This document shows positions 4,525 to 62,794 of a stretch of DNA of 64,000 bases, one piece after another (the first letter of the stretch is position 1; every line of letters begins with the position of its first letter). This DNA comes from Periplaneta americana (lineage: Eukaryota; Arthropoda; Insecta; Blattodea; Blattidae), in contig NC_091130.1 in NCBI RefSeq assembly GCF_040183065.1, forward strand, positions 129,247,914 through 129,311,913, read 5' to 3'. The translations under genes and the position numbers were made by a program. A model generated the notes under the pieces. That model was not told where the DNA came from. It saw nothing but the letters and a program-made list of their open reading frames with translations, and did not search any database.

Positions 4525-6125
4525 AGTGTTCTGCCCATGGGCAGGTCTTTCACTGCAAACCCTGCTTTCTCTAATCTTTCCTATTTTCTGCCTTCCTTTT
4601 AGTCTCCCCATGTGATCCACATATCTTAATGTCGTCTATCATCTGATCTGATATCTTCTTCTGCCCCAAACTCTTCTCTCATTCACCATTCCTTCCCTTG
4701 CATCCTTCAGTAGGCAGTTTCTTCTCAGCCAGTGACCCAACCAATTCCTTTTTCTCTTTCTGACCAGTTTCAGCATCATTCTTTCTTCACCCACTCTTTT
4801 TAAAACAACTTCATTTCTTATTCTGTCTGTCCATTTCACATGCTCCAGTCTTCTCCATATCCACATTTAAAATGCTTCTATTCGTTTCTCTTCATTTCGT
4901 CGTAATGTCTATGTTTCTGCCCCATACAGTGCCACACTCCACACAAGCACTTCACTAGTCTTTTTCTTAGTTCTTTTTCCAGAGATCCGCAGAAGAGCCT
5001 CCTTTTTCTATTAAAAGCTTCCTTTGCCATTGCTATCCTCCTTTTGATTTCCTGGCTCAACATGTTACTGCTTATAGTACATCCCAAGTATTTGAAGCTG
5101 TTCACTTGCTCTACTGCCTCATTTAGAATTCGCAAGGTTACCTTCTTTATTTTTCTTGTGACAACCATGATCTTCGTCTTGTTTGCATTCATCTTCATTC
5201 CATATTGCTCACAGTTGTAATTTAGCTCCAGTAGCATATTCCTTAGTATCTTCTCCTCTTCTGCTAACAACACCATATCATCAGCAAATCTTATGCACTT
5301 TATTCTTCTTCCTCCTACTTTTACCCCTCCCATGTTCTGAAAGCAGTCCTTTACCAAATCCTCCAAGTAGATATTATTTATTATTATTTTAATGTACCGA
5401 AGTACATATGATATTTCCATGCATGATTTTTCTCCGTTCCATTACTCTTTCTCCAAGTAAAAGTTGAACAGGGTACACCATAAAGGCTAACCTTGTCATA
5501 CTCCTCTCCCTATTTCTCTTCCTTCAGACATTTCTTCTCCTATCCTGACTTTGACTCGTTTCATGTATAGGTTACTGTCTTTTCAATCCACACTTACTCT
5601 CTTCAGGATGTCCATCAGTTTGTTCTAATCCACTCTGTCAGACGCATTTTCTAGGTCCACAAATACTATATACACTTCTTTATTTTTCTCTAGGTATCTT
5701 TTGCTGATTGTTCATAGTAGTTCAATTGCATCCCTTGTACCTTTTCCTTTTCTGAAGCCAGCCGGTCCGGATGGCTCAAGCGGTAGGAGCATGGCATGTC
5801 TCTATCGCTTGGTCCGAAGGGTTGTGGGTTCGAGTCCCGCCTCGGGCATGGGTGTTGTGTTTGCATTAATGTAAGTAAAACAAAGGAAACAAATTAAAAA
5901 CGAAAACAGAAAACAAAGATAACTTTGGTAAACGGCCTCTGGCCGGTCTAAATTTAAAAAAAAAAAGCCAAACTGCTCTTCTTTCAACTGTCCTTCCATC
6001 TTAGAATATAAACGTCGATTCAGTATTCACAGGAGAATCTTCGCCGAGTGCGATATCAGACTGATAGTCCTGAACTCCTTACATTTCTTGGCATTATTTT
6101 TCTTCGGTTTTGGCAGCATTAATGC
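4523..6125 (-). mobile_element. 5'-truncated LINE with reverse transcriptase relic
   Basis: Minus strand. 5420-4878 encodes the RT palm with the FADD catalytic motif (IRFADDMVLLAEEE), the MKMNANKTK region and FKYLGCTIS. 4866-4639 is the C-terminal part (LGHWLRRNCLLKDAREG). Upstream, 6125-5970 still reads RT fingers (FRTISLISHSAKILLRILN) and 5760-5600 continues (TRDAIELL). A SINE at 5762-5966 splits it. Frameshifts and stops show it is dead. Probably a jockey/CR1-type non-LTR element; the clade is not resolved. Confidence 0.75.
5762..5966 (+). repeat. SINE (tRNA-headed) inserted in LINE RT
   Basis: The tRNA-like head has GGATGGCTCAAGCGGTAGGAG and GGTTCGAGTCCCGCCTC, then a body and an A-rich tail. 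It is flanked by short AAGCCA-type repeats and interrupts the LINE RT right after a QFGF codon run. Confidence 0.75.
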
Positions 6126-6349: not shown

Positions 6350-6657
6350 TTTATTGGGATGTGGAAAATTTTGAGGAACAGGATTGGTTAGCTACTGATG
6401 TAGTTGCTAACATCGGCAATGAGGATAAAAGACATCAGACTACAGAAAAACCATTTTCCTGTCTACGTTGTGGTAGAAGCTACAAGAGAAAAGCATCTTT
6501 GAACAGTCATCTTGCAAATGAATGTGGGAAGGAACCACAGTTTCAATGTCCTCGATGTTCATATCGCTGTAAAGTGAAGTCAAACCTCATGAGACATTTT
6601 CGTACCTTCCATCTTACAAACCAAAGGAGTGATCAGATACAGTCAAATTCTGCATAA
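6350..6657 (+). CDS. lola: lola alternative terminal exon a (C2HC + C2H2 finger pair)
   Basis: Seen: a pyrimidine-rich tract and TTGTTGCAG end at 6349. The exon opens with two bases (TT) and then 101 codons to a TAA at 6655-6657. Residues 1-34 are an acidic leader. Finger 1 uses C37, C40, H53 and C58 (C2HC). The ECGKEP linker is at 57-62. Finger 2 uses C66, C69, H82 and H87 (C2H2). Known: this pair with the ECGKEP linker is typical of the C-termini of longitudinals lacking, a BTB transcription factor whose alternative last exons give different DNA-binding specificities in axon guidance and other programmes. Inferred: it is spliced to a constant BTB exon upstream of this window; with a donor exon ending in G the junction codon would be GTT (Val). 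The fingers closely resemble those of exon b. The product acts in the nucleus. The first in-frame GTG at 6361 is not a real start. Which fly isoform it matches cannot be told from sequence alone. Confidence 0.9.
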
Positions 6658-7974: not shown

Positions 7975-8094
7975 ATCCGGCATCGAAACTGGCTTAGTGG
8001 ATAAAGCGTCAGCACGTAGAGCTGAAAACCCGGGTTCGAGTCCTGGTGCCAGAGAGAATTTTTCTCCCCTCCACCCATCCTTATCAAATTTAAT
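7975..8094 (+). repeat. SINE with tRNA-like head
   Basis: A-box TGGCTTAGTGGATAAAGC and B-box GGGTTCGAGTCC with a pairing T-arm, then a pyrimidine-rich body (TTTTTCTCCCCTCCACCC). The acceptor stem does not close as a real tRNA. Confidence 0.6.
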
Positions 8095-16394: not shown

Positions 16395-16657
16395 GTTTCT
16401 ATGTTGGAGCCAATTTCACTGGAATGCAACATTTTCAACCATTCCAATGCCTACGTTGTGGCCGGACATATAAATGGCGAAGTTCACTCAACAGTCATAT
16501 TCAAAACGAATGTGGGAAAGAGCCACGATTTCAATGCCCATACTGTTCCTATCGTTGTAAAGTAAAATCTAATCTGCTGAAGCATATCCGGAACTCTCAC
16601 AGAGCTCCTACTTCTGACACTTTGGATTCTAAATTATATTCATATAAGTTACTGTGA
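16395..16657 (+). CDS. lola: lola alternative terminal exon b (C2HC + C2H2 finger pair)
   Basis: Seen: the acceptor CTTGTTTCAG ends at 16394. Two bases (GT) precede 86 codons, and the stop TGA is at 16655-16657. Only about 16 residues precede finger 1 (C18, C21, H34, C39). The ECGKEP linker is at 38-43, and finger 2 has C47, C50, H63 and H68. A short hydrophilic tail ends in Leu-Leu. Known: the architecture is that of lola C-terminal exons. The entry phase is identical to every other exon in the array, so each is interchangeable behind the same donor. Compared with exon a, the core GR-S/T-YK and the second-finger block SYRCKVKSNL are shared, so a and b look like duplicates 10 kb apart. An ATG at 16424 lies in frame but inside the exon and need not be used. 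A second frame open across the same stretch is a shadow. The likely poly(A) signal is at 17003, and a 51-bp minisatellite follows. Confidence 0.9.
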
Positions 16658-17008: not shown

Positions 17009-17054
17009 GGCAATGATTTCATACAGCTTATGAAAGAAAGCTCAATAGTTGCGT

Positions 17055-17360
17055 CATTTTTATGTGCTTGGTCACCCATAGAATTTCGATCACATTGACA
17101 TATATCATTTTTATGTGCTTGGTCACCTATAGAATTTCGATCACATTGACATATATCATTTTTATGTGCTTGGTCACCCATAGAATTTCGACCACATTGA
17201 CATATATCATTTTTATGTGCTTGGTCACCCATAGAATTTCGATCATATTGACATATATCATTTTTATATGCTTGGTCATCCATAGAATTTCGACCACATT
17301 GACATATATCATTTTTATATGCTTGGTCACCCATAGAATTTCGATCACATTGACATATAT
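17055..17360. repeat. 51-bp minisatellite, six copies
   Basis: The unit starting CATTTTTATGTGCTTGGTCA repeats at 17055, 17106, 17157, 17208, 17259 and 17310 with few substitutions. Because 51 is a multiple of three, several frames stay open on both strands; these are not genes. It lies about 400 bp after the exon b stop. Confidence 0.95.
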
Positions 17361-24589: not shown

Positions 24590-24885
24590 ATGATTTGACA
24601 GTGGGACATCTGGGTATGTACTGGACTCCTCTCAGCCCTGGTCACCAGTTACAGAGCAGTACAGACGAGTGGAATTCTTCGGCACCAAGTTCCAGTGATA
24701 GTATGCTTATACATGCATGTCCACACTGCACCAAGAGATACAAGTTCCGTACATCTCTTTATCGACATCTGAAATTTGAATGCGGGAAAGAACCCTCATT
24801 CCATTGCCCTCATTGTTCGTACATGACAAAACAAAAAGCACCAATGCAACGTCACATACGCAATACACATGGCATACATGAATGA
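24590..24885 (+). CDS. lola: lola alternative terminal exon c (C2HC + C2H2 finger pair)
   Basis: Seen: the acceptor ATATTTTGCAG ends at 24589. The junction bases AT are followed by 97 codons and a TGA at 24883-24885. Residues 1-41 are a Ser/Pro-rich leader. Finger 1 has C43, C46, H59 and C64, the ECGKEP linker is at 63-68, and finger 2 has C72, C75, H88 and H93. The protein ends four residues later. Known: finger spacing, linker and terminal position match lola alternative exons. Inferred: a donor G gives GAT (Asp) at the junction, as for exons d, e and f. The recognition helices (around FRTSLYR and TKQKAPMQR) differ from exons a and b, which predicts a different DNA target. The intron just upstream holds LINE RNase H debris on the opposite strand. 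AATAAA at 25024 is the nearest poly(A) signal. A TTG codon at 24595 is not a credible start. Confidence 0.9.
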
Positions 24886-25093: not shown

Positions 25094-25227
25094 TGGCTTT
25101 CAGGTAGTAGCTCCCTGTAAAGCAGGTTTGAATAATTTCAAGGAAAAATTGTTCCGGAGCCGGGTATCGATCCCGGGACCCTTCGCTTAGCGCGCGAATG
25201 CTCTACCGACTGAGCTACCCCAGGAAC
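25094..25227 (-). repeat. SINE family A copy, minus strand
   Basis: tRNA-like head 25227-25151 (TAGCTCAGTCGGTAGAGC on minus) and tail to GCCAGATATG. Head pairs well, but the loop base before the putative anticodon GCT is C and the acceptor has a mismatch. Confidence 0.7.
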
Positions 25228-25244
25228 TATACATTCTTTACTGG

Positions 25245-25480
25245 AGATACGTTAACAGAAAGCCACAAATTAAGTCACACAGTATTGTGTGCGCTCATAG
25301 TTGAATTCTGGCGTCTTGTCAGCTCATTTGAGTTGTGTGGATATAAAAAGGAAAAATTGTGACAGTGTCGTGTATAGTTCCTGGGGTAGCTCAGTCGGTA
25401 GAGCGTTCGCGCGCTAAGCGAAGGGTCCCGGGATCGATACCCGGCTCCGGAACAATTTTTCCTTGAAATTATTCAAATTC
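25245..25480 (+). repeat. SINE family A copy, plus strand, with leader
   Basis: Leader matches 560-693, head 25377-25453. It forms an inverted pair with the preceding copy, sharing GGAAAAATTGTTCCGG / CCGGAACAATTTTTCC. Confidence 0.7.
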
Positions 25481-28028: not shown

Positions 28029-28949
28029 CGAGGGGGATCCAGGAAATAACGACCGTTTTATTGTAATAATTAAAAAAATATATATTTATTTGAAAAAACA
28101 AAGTCTGTTACATAACTGAAGCTTCCTTTACTTCTCTACATAATCACCACCTACATTTAAACATTTGTCATATCTGTTCACTAGCTTTAGAATTCCCGTG
28201 TTATACTCCTCTGCCGCCAGTTCATTAAGCCAGGTGTTCACTGTCTTCTTCAACTCTTCATCACTTCCAAAACGCGTACCACCCAGAAAGTCTTTCAGCT
28301 TAGCGAAAAGGTGAAAATCGCTAGGAGCAAGGTCTGGACTATAGGGCGGATGATCAAAGATTTCCCAACCGAATTGATCCAGCAATTCTTCGAGTTGAAG
28401 CACCAGTGTGCGGGAGGGCACAGATTTTGTGGTAGCCAAGATGTTGCGACACAATTTCACCAAGCAAAGAACGAGAAATGTCAGGAAAGGCAATATGCAA
28501 TTCGTCGAGTGATGTGCGCCTGTCTTGCAAGATTCTGTCGTTCACTTTAGTCTTCAGGTCTTCTGTGATGAGTGATGGGCGTCCGGGTCGAGTTTCATCG
28601 TGGACATTTGTTCGCCCATTGTTGAACATTTCGCACCATTTTCTCACATTTCTTTCATTCATTACAGTATCACCATACACTTCTTTCAATTGCCGGTAAA
28701 TTTCTGCAGGTTTGAAATGTCGGGCATTCAAAAATCGAATCACACTCCTCACCGCACAGTCGGCGGGATTATCAATCACGTCGTTCATTTTGAAATAACA
28801 CAAAATGCACAATAGCGACTTGTTGCAACCAGTACTCACAACATTATGAGAACACATGTTAAGGAAGCCAGTTGACCTTCAAACAAGGAAGGGGAGTCAG
28901 CTGCGCGCCGGGTATGCGCGAACGGTCGTTATTTCCTGGATCCCCCTCG
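28029..28949 (-). mobile_element. mariner element with internal deletion
   Basis: Inverted ends CGAGGGGGATCCAGGAAATA of about 28 bp, flanked by TA. Minus strand: N-terminal HTH part (28788-28440, CAVRSVIRFLNARHFKPAEI, WCEMFNNGRTNVHDE, GRPSLITEDL) and the C-terminal catalytic block (YSPDLAPSDFHLF) at about 28340. The stretch with the first two catalytic Asp is missing: 921 bp against roughly 1.3 kb for the family. Confidence 0.9.
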
Positions 28950-39347: not shown

Positions 39348-39691
39348 ATATGGTTTCTATACTGCATGATGAAAGAATCTGGGGTCGTTCTAAATCGTCG
39401 TGGACTTCAGCAGTAGACTGTGATGATGGTTCAGATGTTATCCAAGCAATTCTTCAACAAGCTTCAGGATGTCACGTGGAAACAGACATGATTTCAAGTG
39501 CATTTGTATGCCCTCAGTGTGGAAAGAACTACCGTTACAAGTGTTCATTGCGACGACATCTGGTAGTGGAATGTGGGAAAGAACCACAGTTCTCTTGTCC
39601 GCATTGTCACAGGAAGATTAGACATAAACATGATTTGGTTGTGCATATGAAAACATATTGCCCCGTACTGAGAAGGCGACAGTTAATGTAA
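39348..39691 (+). CDS. lola: lola alternative terminal exon d (two C2HC-type fingers)
   Basis: Seen: the acceptor CATTTACAG ends at 39347. The junction bases AT precede 113 codons to a TAA at 39689-39691. Residues 1-52 form a leader rich in Asp and Ser. Finger 1 has C54, C57, H70 and C75, and the ECGKEP linker spans 74-79. Finger 2 has C83, C86 and H99, and the last ligand position is C104, not His. Known: lola family exon; finger 1 is always C2HC in this family, while finger 2 is usually C2H2. Odd: finger 2 here would be C2HC as well. The reading frame stays open upstream to an ATG at 39272 and would give a hydrophobic N-terminus, but that part is the intron's branch and pyrimidine region and I reject it. 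A Tigger-like transposon starts 95 bp after the stop, so the 3' UTR is either very short or includes transposon sequence. No AATAAA lies before the transposon. Confidence 0.9.
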
Positions 39692-45180: not shown

Positions 45181-45740
45181 AATTAATTCATAGTTCCATT
45201 TGGTCATGCTACTTATTCAGTGTAGAGTGTTGTGTATTATACCAGACTGCTTGTGAATAATAAAGAAAATAACAAGTCCTTTAATAAAAAAAGAAAATAT
45301 GTATCTTCGATTAATTGGAGTATAGGAAGTAGATATAAATTACAATCTAAATGTTCCTGGTGTTAATTATATTTATAATTATTTCAGTGTTCTAGTTATG
45401 ATTGTTATAAGAAAGAATCTATTCATTCTGCCATAGCCTTTCTACATTAAACCTAGCAACTAACAAATGCTATCTAATGCTGTAATTTTATCAGAATATT
45501 CACATCACATAATCATTTGTTTCACTACATATTAATATGTCCAGTAAAAATGAACTTGTACCTAATATTTGGTATAAATGTTAAAGTCCATGTCTTCGTG
45601 GTACTTGAGTTGTCAGTGTTCTATTTTTGTTTGAAGAGTATCTTTTATTTTTTTTATTAGCCTATATTTCGTAATTCAAAATATTTTTGCATTTAAAATT
45701 GCGTCAGTTAACATATCTTTTGTCTTTTCCTTTATTCCAG

Positions 45741-46729
45741 ATACTGAACTTGATGGACCTTCAAATAAGAACAGTCGTGCTTTGATAAGTTTGGTTCCAA
45801 CAGTAAGGCTATTGGAAAAAACTGCATCAGATGATGATACACATGTTAAAATGGAATCTGAGGACCCACCAGTCAATTTAACACTATCACCTACTAATTC
45901 TGTGACTGATCGAAGTGCAGTTCTTTCTAAAGAATCGTATAGAAATAATTTGAACAATACTACTGATTCAGGCACTCATGATGTGTTTCTAGTAAAAGAT
46001 AAAACTAATTGTGAAATCGTTTCCCCAGCCACCAAGCTAATGGGTTCTGACGGTTCTAATGTAGTCCATCATAAAACTATTAAATCTCCATTAGTATTAA
46101 AAAGTGCTTCAACTAATTCAAGAGTTATAACAGTGAAAGGTATTAATAAGCCATCACAGGGTTCATTTGATAATTTGAAAAAAATGAAACACAACATTAT
46201 TGTTGGCAAGCAGCTTGATACAGGAAGAATAGTAAAAATGAAAGTACTGAATCCAGTAATGTTGAATACCAGTATTTTTGCAAACAACAGAGTATCGAAT
46301 GCTCAAAGTCCTTCTTCACTTTGTATCTCTTCAGTCATGGGTACTGGAAACATTGCTTCAAGTTCTTCTGCAATTACATCTGGAAGAACTATTTCATTAG
46401 ATCCAAAAATTGTTTCTTCACGTTCACTTACCAATACTGAAGCAAAAATGATTGTGGAACCACTTAATACTGATAAAAATACACCCACATACAGTAATGT
46501 TAAGAGAAAAGCAGAAAATGATGTCAGCATAGTTTTTGAAAAGGGAGGTGAACCTGATGTTCAGATACTATCAAAAAAGGAACAAAATGCCCAGAATTCA
46601 TCATCTCTAAAAGAAAACGCAACTTTGAAGTTAAGTAACGTGAAAGAAAGAACTCAGAAATTTATTGTAACTTCCATAACATGTCCTTCAATTGAGAAAT
46701 ATAAAACTAGCAAATCGCACTGCAATTGA
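45741..46729 (+). CDS. lola: Candidate finger-less lola alternative terminal exon e
   Basis: Seen: the acceptor TCCTTTATTCCAG ends at 45740. Two junction bases (AT) precede 328 codons to a TGA at 46727-46729; this is by far the longest open frame in the window. The product is rich in Ser, Thr, Asn and Lys, has no Cys/His finger and no membrane segment, and looks intrinsically disordered. A SUMO-type motif VKME sits at residues 35-38, followed by an acidic patch. A basic NVKRK lies near residue 252. AATAAA occurs at 46942. Inferred: it sits between zinc-finger exons on the same strand and is entered in exactly the same phase with the same AT junction as exons c, d and f, so I take it as an alternative C-terminus of lola without a DNA-binding domain. 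Known: some fly lola isoforms lack zinc fingers. Alternatives are an internal exon with a hidden donor, or an exon of an unrelated gene inside the intron; the phase match makes these less likely. Confidence 0.65.
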
Positions 46730-46941
46730 AAAATAATTGAAAAGTATATCCCCTAATGTATCCTTTGAAAGTGAGCCTCGCCATATTGATTGTATTAGTT
46801 CAAAACAGTCGTTCACATTTTGTCAGAATCTCTGAAAAACCAAATTAGTTCAATGTAGATACTATAACAGAAAACAAAGTTCTTTTAGCACTGTGAACTT
46901 CTGCAGTGTACCTGACAGTATACCATTTACAAAATCTCAAC

Positions 46942-46947
46942 AATAAA
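46942..46947 (+). terminator. Candidate poly(A) signal for the finger-less exon e
   Basis: AATAAA followed by a second overlapping ATAAA run, 213 bp after the stop. It supports a terminal rather than internal exon. Confidence 0.4.
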
Positions 46948-46949
46948 AT

Positions 46950-49055
46950 AAACTAACAACACTTAAATCTGTTTCAGTAGCTGAAGCCTTTGATTGTTTT
47001 GGAGTGAAAAAAATTTAGGCATAACCTTACGGTTCAGAAGATATGACATCAAAGGCACCCTTACTTTATTCCAGTTTCAAATTTATCGTGTTGGATTATA
47101 ATGCGTACTTATATTATATTAAACATGAATGCAGATTATTCAGACAGAGAATTGATTGGAAATTTAAAAGTGTCCCAGGTTGACGATCCGAGCATTTTCA
47201 ATTCACTCCACCATTAACTCCTGTCATCAAGCCTTGCTTCTGATAAAGCCCAGTGACGTATCTGGAAAACAGTTTTCCATTTTCAGGAGTTTTGGATGAA
47301 CTAACCCTTTTGGAAAAGAAAAAAATGGTGGCAATTTGTGTCTGTCTGCACTAATTCTGAGCATGACCCTGTTTTTCTCCGTTAGATGTTTTGATTGGAA
47401 CTTCTTTTGTACCTTACTCTGTGATTATGTAATTATACAGCATATCTAACAAGATTTGCATCTCATCAGAATTCCAGATTTGTCCCATTAAGAAGCTACT
47501 TCTTTTCCTCGATTTGATGATATGGTGCTGGAAATTTTTTGGCTTGTTTATAAAATCTGATCACAGTTTCTGGCAGATTGTGGTATGGCGTCATAGGGAT
47601 AGGCCCCCGTGCCACATAAAACAATCAACCATCAAATTTGGGAAGCTTTTAATTTTAATCCTCTAGGATAGAAAAAATTCATTACAGATGTAGGTCCTGC
47701 AAGATATGTAGACAGAACATGAGACAAGATATTATGTAGGTGGAACATGAGACAAAAATTCTAAAAATCGGGACATCTGGGGTCTCTAGTTTAATTAGGT
47801 ACATGGTACCTATGTTCTTATTGAGTTTGTGTCTTACTGCTAATGTTCATAACAATGTTGATCCATTAATTTCACTGAACTTCTTTTATAAGTTGCCTTT
47901 TATTACAATTTCAGTAAGTAATATTTTTATTTCGTATTCATTTCTTTCTTAAAAAGATTATAAAATAAAATGTGAATATGTTTCAGTTGATACATAATTT
48001 TAGAAGCATAAAGCTTTTGAAGATTGTGTATAAAATATAGTTTTGCTGCACTTCTTTCTTTCTAATTCTTTGTATTTAATTATATTTAGTTTATAAAACT
48101 GTGTGACATATGTTAATTGTTTCTAGAGTATTTGTTGATATCTATATCTGTACATTATATACTCCATAAATTAGGTAATAGGTTTATATTATGTGTGTCT
48201 GTAGGTTAAGCTTTTATTCAGTGTCTCATGTCAGCAGTGGCCAAATGGTACGGATACTATAGGATGCTAAGATGAGTATTTTGAAATAGGGATCCTCTGA
48301 TCTGTGTTACCTGCCAAAGTTTTTATGAGTCCTTTAAACTTCAAAATGAAGTGTAGGCCTATCTTGGTAACATCAGGAATATATATGTTAGCTGTTTTGT
48401 TTTTTGACAGTTTTTATGAGCTAATGTGCCATTTTAGAGACATTTCATATACAGTGTTATGTGTTTGTTTTCATTATACAAATATTTTTCTGACTCATAG
48501 TGATAGCTCAAAACACTAGAGCATTACAACAAATTCTACTACACCCTTTCAGAGATTGCAGATATCTGTTGCACAAAGTCACACACAACCAGAATCCTAG
48601 CAACCAATTTCTTCTTAGTATCCAGTTTTTTTTACTTGATGTGAATTCCTTTAGACACTACTGGTACCCTGGTCTTTTGGGTTGTTCAGTAGTGTCTTAT
48701 GATGACATTTTCGACCATGAAGTTGCCTTATATCATAATACTCTATTAGAATTTTTTTTATCAATTATATTATTTTGTGGCTGTTGACCAGAGATATTCA
48801 GTATAATAGAAAAAAACATAGAGAGCCCTGAAAATCCTGCCCTCTTTTCTGGCGTTCGGATACAAGATAATTAAATTGAAGGAAAGTAGTTGAGGGAGGA
48901 CATTTTGCGTCATCAGCCTTTGGTCAACGATGCTCCATCTTGAATCATTATTGTCTTTTCATTGAATTTCCAGCTTGAGCTACCAGACTAAAGATACACA
49001 TAATGTAATGTCGAAGGGATTGTATGCTTTATGTACAAAGTTAAAGCTTCAGTAA
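46950..49055. other. Intron, no recognised gene
   Basis: A weak SINE-like head may lie near 48235 (GCAGTGGCCAAATGGTACGG). Otherwise nothing. Confidence 0.4.
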
Positions 49056-53759: not shown

Positions 53760-55003
53760 TTTAAAAACATAAAATTACTTAGTCACACGTTAAAAAGTGT
53801 TAGAATTTTAAAAAAAGGTACAGTATATACCTTCGACAGATAGCCCGTTTCGACGTGATGTTACGTCTTCATCAGTGTCTCCTGTATTACTGGTGATCTT
53901 GAATTCTGCGATGTGCATTTGTCGATTGTAGGGGTGGGAGTATGTTGCTCTTATGGTGGGGGCTGGTTGTTTGTGTGTTATGACGTATCATGACGTCGAA
54001 TAATGTGTGGGTATTGAACTGTAATTGTGTATTAAGTATATGTTGTGGGTATGTTATTGTATGTTTATATATTTCTAAGATGCTTAACTGTGAACTTTTT
54101 GGTGTGATGTGTAAAATTTCCATATCTCTTTCTATATTATTGTAGTCATGATTATTGTTGATAATGTGGTCTGCGTAATTTGATGTGATGTAGGGTTTGG
54201 TTATAGCTTTAATATGTTCATTATATCTTGTGTGAAAGGATCTTCCTGTCTGTCCTATGTAAAAATGTGGGCAACTATTGCATTTTAGTTTGTAAAGTCC
54301 AGTTGAATTATATTTATTTGAATGTTTAAAGTGATTATTTAGATATTTCTGTGTTGTGTTTCATTCAGAAAACTAAAATACAAGATAGCATACAAAACAA
54401 ATAACACAACACAGAAATATCTAAATAATCACTTTAAACATTCAAATAAATATAATTCAACTGGAGTTTACAAACTAAAATGCAATAGTTGCCCACATTT
54501 TTACATAGGACAGACAGGAAGATCCTTTCACACAAGATATAATGAACATATTAAAGCTATAACCAAACCCTACATCACATCAAATTATGCAGACACATTA
54601 TCAACAATAATCATGACTACAATAATATAGAAACAGATATGGAAATTTTACACATCACACCAAGAAGTTCACAGTTAAACATCTTAGAACAATACGAAAT
54701 ATATAAACATACAATAACATACCCACAATATATACTTAATACACAATTACAGTTCAATACTCGCACATTATTCGACGTCATGATACGTCATAACACACAA
54801 ACAACCAGCCCCCACCATAAGAACAACATACTCCCACCCTACAATCGACAAATGCACATCACAGAATTCAAGATCACCAGTAGTTCAAGAGACACTGATG
54901 AAGACGTAACATCACGTCGAAACGGGCCATCTGCCGAACGTATATACCTTTTTTTTTAAATTTCAACACTTTTTAATGTGTGACTAAGTAATTTTATGTT
55001 TTT
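53760..55003. mobile_element. Head-to-head Penelope-like fragments (family 4)
   Basis: Two about 600-bp arms (53760-54360 minus, 54403-55003 plus) with a 42-bp centre. The + arm encodes a GIY-YIG endonuclease region (HFYIGQTGRSF near 54500, EQYEIYKHT near 54690), typical of Penelope-like retroelements. The reverse transcriptase is absent. Both copies are broken fossils, and the close similarity of the arms suggests a fairly recent origin of the pair. Confidence 0.8.
54895..54922 (+). ncRNA. Hammerhead-like core motif (family 4)
   Basis: CTGATGA plus one base, stem GACGT/ACGTC, loop AACATC, GAAA. Mirror on minus at 53848-53875. It lies at the end of the GIY-YIG frame. Confidence 0.3.
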
Positions 55004-61285: not shown

Positions 61286-62176
61286 CTTACTTACTTACTG
61301 GCTTTTAAGGAACCCAGAGGTTCATTGCCGCCCTCACATAAGCCCGCCATCGGTCCCTATCCTGAGCAAAATTAATCCATTCTCTATCATCATATCCCAC
61401 CTCCCTCAAATCCATTTTAATATTGTCTTCCCATCTACGTCTCGGCCTCCCTAAAGGTCTTTTTCCCTCCGGCCTCCCAACTAACACTCTATATGCATTT
61501 CTGGATTCGCCCATACGTGCTACATGCCCTGCCCATCTCAAACGTCTGGATTTAATGTTCCTAATTATGTCAGGTGAAGAATACAATGCGTGCAGTTCTG
61601 TGTTGTGTAACATTCTCCATTCTCCTGTAACTTCATCCCTCTTAGCCCCAAATATTTTCCTAAGCACCTTATTCTCAAACACCCTTAATCTCTCTTCCTT
61701 TCTCAAAGTGAGAGTCAAAGTTTCACAACCATAAAGAACAACCGGTAATATAACTGTTTCATAAATTCTAACTTTCAGATTTTTCGACAGCAGACTGGAT
61801 GATAAAAGTTTCTCAACCGATCAATAACAGGCATTTCCCATATTTATTCTGTGTTTAATTTCCTCCCAAGTATCATTTATATTTGTTACTGTTGCTCCCA
61901 GATATTTGAACTTCTCCACATCTTCGAAAGATAAATTTCCAATTTTTATATTTCCATATCGTACAATATTCTGGTCACGAGACATAATCATATACTTTGT
62001 CTTTTCGGGATTTACTTCCAAACCTATCTCTTTACTTGCTTCCAGTAAAATTCCCGTGTTTTCCCTAATCGTTTGTGGATTTTCTCCTAACATATTCACG
62101 TCATCTGCATAGACAAGCAGCTGATGTAACCCGTTCAATTCCAAACCCTCTCTGTTATCCTGGACTTTCCTAATGG
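61286..62176 (-). mobile_element. 5'-truncated LINE with intact target duplication
   Basis: Flanked by CAAATTAATTA at 61275-61285 and 62177-62187. Minus strand: RT palm with catalytic YADD ([16 protein letters not shown], 62125-62080) and the [10 protein letters not shown] block, then the C-terminal tail (RRLRWAGHVARMGESRNAY). A frame change separates the two pieces (62144-61821 and 61718-61305). (TAAG)n tail. Confidence 0.9.
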
Positions 62177-62441
62177 CAAATTAATTAATATGTTTTAATC
62201 ATATCTAACCATTTCATGATGAATTCTCCAGCTGTGTAACACATGTGAATATATTTATATCACCTTATTCCTGACTGTACAGAAGAAAGCTTATTATTAT
62301 TATTGGGTATTATTTGTCAACAGGCATTAATTCAGTATAATGTACTTAATTTTAATTGTTTGTCATATGTTAAAACATGAGATTGATATGTATTGTCATT
62401 CATAATCATACTAACCGTTAGCTATGATTTATTTATTACAG

Positions 62442-62794
62442 ATCATTTGGTTTTTGACATGGAAGATGGGATGGTAGATGCTCAAGTGTTTATGAATAGA
62501 GAATTACTGGGACAACAAACTGTAGGAGAAGAACAACAACTCTACCCATGCCCAAGATGTAAGAAAGTGTATCGCTGGATGATCTCGCTTCGCAGACATA
62601 TTCGTCTTGAGTGCGGTCAAGAACCTAAACATCATTGTTTATATTGTGGAAGAAAATTTAAACACAAACATCATCTGATTGGTCACATGGCTATACATGT
62701 AAGGCGGGGCCATCAGCTGAGAACATTGCCCATTTTAAATATTCAAAATTTCGATATTCCTGGTTCTTCTATAGAGGAGAGGAAAGGAACATAA
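62442..62794 (+). CDS. lola: lola alternative terminal exon f (C2HC + C2H2 finger pair)
   Basis: Seen: the acceptor TTTATTACAG ends at 62441. The junction bases AT are followed by 116 codons and a TAA at 62792-62794. An acidic/Gln leader (1-35) precedes finger 1 (C36, C39, H52, C57). The linker here is ECGQEP (56-61) instead of ECGKEP. Finger 2 has C65, C68, H81 and H85, with a three-residue His spacing that is shorter than in exons a-c. A 31-residue basic-then-acidic tail follows. Known: lola-type terminal exon. Its fingers are closest in this window to exon d (shared SLRRH in finger 1, and the HKH run before the finger-2 helix). A LINE copy with intact target duplications ends about 255 bp before the acceptor. 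AATAAA at 62976 is a good poly(A) signal. An upstream in-frame ATG at 62393 lies in the intron and is not a start. Confidence 0.9.

Follow-up and report, generated by a model that had tools for sequence, protein, structure and literature searches.

An open frame of 328 codons in the cockroach Periplaneta americana, lying within an array of Lola-like finger-pair exons, is likely an alternative last exon, lacking zinc fingers, of the nerve-wiring gene lola; we put the probability of this reading, in which the exon would be joined to the BTB-bearing part of the gene, at about 0.62. The exon lies in a stretch of 64,000 nucleotides (the window), all of which was analyzed here. The window had been interpreted once before from its letters and open reading frames, and we refer to that interpretation as the sequence-only reading. 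The coordinates of the features are collected in Table 1.

Five ORFs with zinc fingers were found in the window, all on the plus strand and each carrying one finger pair (5/5), as the sequence-only reading had claimed for the other exons of the array. Among the best 120 of 3821 proteins, most of which were named lola, the top matches of these exons were 45-59% identical over 53-65 residues. The 328-codon exon (the target exon) sits between finger exons 4 and 5 on the same strand, a position within the array. Exon 5, the nearest finger exon found downstream, lies 15.9 kb beyond it. The finger exons comprise about 86 to 116 codons, versus 328 in the target. The finger-exon identities, together with the entry phase and the GNN junction described below, support the view that this locus is a lola array, and the target acceptor appears to fit it.

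Table 1. Positions of the target exon, its signals, and the surrounding finger-pair exons in the window.
Feature	Position	Strand	Remark
Finger-pair exon 1, Lola-like	6350..6657	+	judged acceptor ag/TT
Finger-pair exon 2, Lola-like	16395..16657	+	judged acceptor ag/GT
Finger-pair exon 3, Lola-like	24590..24885	+	judged acceptor ag/AT
Finger-pair exon 4, Lola-like	39348..39691	+	judged acceptor ag/AT; next to the target on its 5' side; contributes to gene model P0001
3' splice site, pyrimidine-rich, tgtcttttcctttattccag	45721..45740	+	pyrimidine rank 2/870 CAGs; reproduces gene model P0001
Target exon	45741..46729	+	328 codons from 45743, TGA 46727-46729; without zinc finger
VKME, psi-K-x-E (SUMO-type) motif, residues 35-38	45845..45856	+	not above chance
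Internal donor-like GT, agggag/GTGAAC, phase 1	46548..46549	+	within the best 1.6% of the 3730 window GTs
AATAAA	46942..46947	+	213 nt past the target stop; not above chance
Finger-pair exon 5, Lola-like	62442..62794	+	judged acceptor ag/AT; next finger exon 3' of the target

Pieces of retroelement reverse transcriptase (Pfam RVT_1) were also observed within the array, at 4881-5441 and 61824-62180 on the minus strand, as was a piece of a mariner-like transposase at 28357-28878 on the minus strand (Pfam HTH_48, the Mos1 helix-turn-helix). Two near-identical ORF pieces lie in opposite orientation at 53887-54360 (minus) and 54343-54630 (plus), the first without a Pfam match; by eye, we take them to resemble the GIY-YIG stretch of Penelope-like elements. 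A tandem repeat at 17054-17360 (51-base unit, 6 copies, 95% matches) keeps the frames of both strands open. tRNA-like matches were located at 5765-5848, 7990-8046, 25151-25224, and 25380-25453. Two of these predictions, both tRNA-Ser(GCT), face opposite ways with 155 bases between them. The match at 7990-8046 alone passes the Rfam threshold, as the one Rfam match (a tRNA) over the whole window, and ARAGORN made no call for it. The tRNA-like matches in the window may be tRNA-derived repeats.

The target exon is 989 bases long, and both its stop codon and the 328 residues after the acceptor are as the sequence-only reading had given them, a length far beyond chance. Counting the open stretch before the acceptor, the stop-free run around the frame extends over 364 codons, whereas in 100 windows of 64 kb simulated with an order-3 Markov model the longest run averaged 147 codons and never exceeded 207; at the background stop rate, 328 open codons have a probability of ~4e-10. 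The frame had the top held-out codon score of the three forward frames in all four quarters of the exon, and over the last 60 codons the +2 frame scored equally well. The target frame thus looks coding, its last 60 codons less firmly so. Repeats in 45400-47200 belong to short two-copy families only, with none that marks a mobile element. A promoter and terminator scan near the target used bacterial consensus sequences and is uninformative for an insect.

The 5' end of the target is well marked by a strong acceptor, which reads ...tttattccag/AT at 45741 (tgtcttttcctttattccag/ATACTG) and is second by pyrimidine content of the 870 CAGs in the 64-kb window. An AATAAA had also been noted nearby. 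It is indeed present past the stop, but its value as a signal is low, since about 23% of the positions in the window have an AATAAA within 219 nt.

To compare the target with the finger exons, we determined how each is entered. Codon position 2 was the best entry for the target and the five finger exons (6/6) at acceptors chosen by judgement on context, AGs in other phases also being present, and the same-phase entry claimed earlier was thereby borne out. The first bases after the judged acceptors were TT, GT, AT, AT, and AT in exons 1-5 and AT in the target. The same AT junction proposed for the whole array therefore held for three of the five finger exons, but not for the TT and GT exons.

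The common part of insect Lola ends in ...RD[P/S/A]Q. The residue after this anchor was D in 50, G in 24, E in 19, A in 12, and V in 4 proteins, that is, a GNN-encoded residue in every one of the 109 insect Lola proteins that contain the anchor, with D the commonest; being mutually related, these proteins do not count as 109 separate cases, and no cockroach is named as the source of any of them. The count covers the best 120 of 3821 proteins, with 11 left out that lack the RD[P/S/A]Q anchor. Lola proteins from one species, compared in pairs, mostly diverge directly behind ...RD[PSA]Q, or a residue later when they have the first residue in common. The pairs from An. gambiae, Hylaeus, and P. argentipes diverge elsewhere and carry no information on the junction. 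A hub exon whose last base is a G in phase 1 would produce just such GNN-encoded residues at the junction. If the cockroach hub donor likewise supplies a G at phase 1, the finger exons would give V, G, D, D, and D, and the target would give D. On its acceptor side the target agrees with this rule, with entry at codon position 2 and AT as first bases. The junction rule is the best evidence for membership of the target in the array and speaks from the acceptor side of the sequence, the BTB exon and its donor lying outside the window.

One gene model was found over the target, P0001 (ANN_25159; Periplaneta americana, 392 aa), whose annotation makes it a gene of its own, with no BTB domain. The model could be rebuilt from the window with agreement at 386 of 392 residues when exon 4 was started from the ATG at 39350, read with one base fewer in its first finger, left at ...ACAA/GT, and joined to 45741; in this window, the join from exon 4 to 45741 is out of frame. 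The base in question belongs to a run of A at 39518-39540 in the first finger of exon 4, and the difference reflects either an assembly or sequence error or an allele in which this finger exon is broken. Judged from these sequences, the 5' partner in P0001 is probably a by-product of the one-base difference. Because the 5' part of P0001 is exon 4 with one base fewer, the model does not reveal the true partner of the target, and the sole gene model found over the target is likely wrong at its 5' end. P0001 confirms, on the other hand, that the target frame is open in a second sequence and that the annotation chose the same acceptor, and it reads through 46548 to the target stop. Six of the 328 target residues differ between the window and P0001, as against none of the 64 before them. 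As all six differences lie inside the target, its residues look weakly constrained, with the frame intact in both sequences.

No zinc finger was detected in the target by a Pfam scan or by a finger pattern run on the frame, in agreement with its earlier description as finger-less, and the sole Pfam row was Fe-ADH with an E of 0.072, far below the cut-off. In a single-sequence AlphaFold2 prediction the mean pLDDT was 32, and 328 of 328 residues were below 50. The tail is probably disordered, as the sequence-only reading had proposed; the AlphaFold2 result is consistent with disorder but is weak when made without an alignment. The SUMO-type VKME motif pointed out in the same reading is present; however, one psi-K-x-E motif was seen in the target versus 0.82 expected from shuffling, so that the motif does not mark a SUMO acceptor above chance.

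The protein search with the 328 residues that had been suggested earlier returned P0001 alone in each of two length ranges (1 of 1728 and 1 of 2538 candidates) and no relative in other insects, in a procedure that requires shared five-residue words and that remote relatives can therefore escape. The set of 2538 candidates was searched with a doubled query to reach proteins of about 361-1148 aa. No PDB sequence matched the target at E up to 10. Against the 109 insect Lola tails, the best Smith-Waterman score of the target was 63, which was equalled by 9 of 40 shuffled targets, and kinship of the target to insect Lola finger tails was rejected. A BLAST row with an E of 0.046 from the target against Lola tails was computed without composition correction and has no evidential value. 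All 109 tails compared carry fingers, and thus no finger-less fly tail was among them.

In the main rival explanation, this lola ending is made of two exons and the target is its spacer: transcripts would exit at 46548 and continue into a finger exon, for instance the one at 62442, so that the protein would still carry fingers. The phase-1 donor-like GT at 46548, scored with a generic matrix, ranks within the top 1.6% of the GTs in the window, and this site and the equal score of the +2 frame over the last 60 codons both weigh against a terminal exon. Such a spacer would also have parallels, as at least 150 residues precede the first finger in 42 of the 109 insect Lola tails (up to 360), and the excerpts of PMC5000498 describe lola 3' endings in Nasonia and Apis that consist of a single exon or of a pair linked by a short intron. 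Here, however, 15.9 kb separate the target from the next finger exon found, P0001 reads on to the stop, and the 60 codons past 46548 stay open (P 0.019) and outscore 97.8% of background stretches and 96% of stop-free ones, although the +2 frame does the same. We consider a spacer role rather unlikely. The target could instead terminate a gene that is unrelated to lola, perhaps an orphan, and nested in the array on the same strand, in keeping with the annotation of P0001 as its own gene without a BTB domain and with the lack of any homologue except P0001. This we regard as improbable, since the phase and first bases of the target obey the lola junction rule, the 5' exon of P0001 is the Lola-like finger exon 4 in a frame unsupported by the window, and no other upstream exon was found in a search that was not systematic. 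A chance or decayed open frame with no function would account for an orphan sequence that has no homologue elsewhere and differs at 6 of 328 residues between two sequences, but it is hard to reconcile with a stop-free run of 364 codons where none of 100 simulated windows exceeded 207, a codon signal in all four held-out quarters, a frame intact in two sequences, and a strong acceptor; it seems very unlikely.

The reading of the target as a finger-less last exon of lola has further points against it. The sole gene model links the target to a piece of finger exon 4 and not to a BTB exon, the sequence is an orphan with no relative in other insects, and the six differences from P0001, with none in the 64 residues before, suggest weak constraint. 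In the excerpts of PMC1947980, moreover, fly clones that were otherwise wild type showed no detectable defect when the finger-less Lola-A was over-expressed. A query composed of the fly BTB and finger exons 4, 5, and 1 gave no protein named Periplaneta or termite among the best 120 of 3821. As full-length cockroach Lola is absent from these 120, the missing BTB-plus-target protein says little.

If the target is such an exon, it would be spliced onto the common BTB-bearing 5' part, giving a Lola protein in which a probably disordered tail replaces the DNA-binding fingers. As in other insects, the last base of the common exon would be a G in phase 1, with GAT (D) as the junction codon, and transcripts would reach the stop at 46729 and end after it. 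The excerpts of PMC11426971 describe the LOLA BTB domain as a hexamer in solution and report that TTK-type BTB domains interact widely with one another in yeast two-hybrid assays. Given such hexamers, a finger-free subunit would take places in mixed Lola BTB assemblies, cut the number of finger pairs in the hexamer, and add a flexible tail. The expected result would be a tuning of the DNA-binding isoforms rather than a strong or outright block. The role of dominant modulator that the sequence-only reading suggested for a finger-less product is putative. A more specific idea, which we put forward tentatively and hold to be doubtful, is that an orphan, lineage-restricted disordered exon was recruited into cockroach lola to provide a dedicated BTB-only subunit that determines the valence with which mixed hexamers bind DNA, an ending without counterpart in flies.

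Finger-less Lola isoforms are known from the fly, where they make up 3 of 20 isoforms according to the excerpts of PMC5127561, with PMC1947980 in agreement, as the sequence-only reading had stated. The accessible part of PMC1947980 already suggests that these three isoforms may regulate other Lola isoforms through heteromers and reports that Lola-A is expressed roughly 10-fold above L and T. In the same experiments, Lola-A in lola-null clones, which were few, gave no rescue and produced extra defects. A limited search of the cockroach lola literature found no report of the target exon, and we make no claim of its absence from print beyond that search. If real, the exon would extend finger-less Lola endings to a cockroach, an insect distant from flies. 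One could then test for a tuning effect of such subunits on DNA-binding Lola complexes, and ask if the role is filled by unrelated sequences in different insects.

Like mod(mdg4), lola encodes BTB proteins and can choose among many 3' endings; most endings of mod(mdg4) encode FLYWCH domains according to the excerpts of PMC11426971 and PMC4667647, whereas those found here encode Lola-like C2HC/C2H2 pairs. The target shares strand, array, judged entry phase, and GNN junction with the insect finger-pair endings of lola, but differs from them in having no finger and in its greater length. With the long-spacer Lola endings it has in common a long finger-free stretch right after the common part; those endings finish in fingers, whereas the target finishes in a stop unless 46548 is used, and their sequence similarity to it does not exceed that of shuffled targets. 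The closest parallel in kind is with Lola-A and the two other finger-less fly isoforms, which are likewise lola-array endings without zinc fingers. In the fly, the join to the BTB exon is shown in the published excerpts, whereas the cockroach join is one that we infer, and the likeness is one of kind and not of sequence. Most likely, then, the finger-less lola ending is of a kind known from flies, and the cockroach member, with its orphan sequence, is new.
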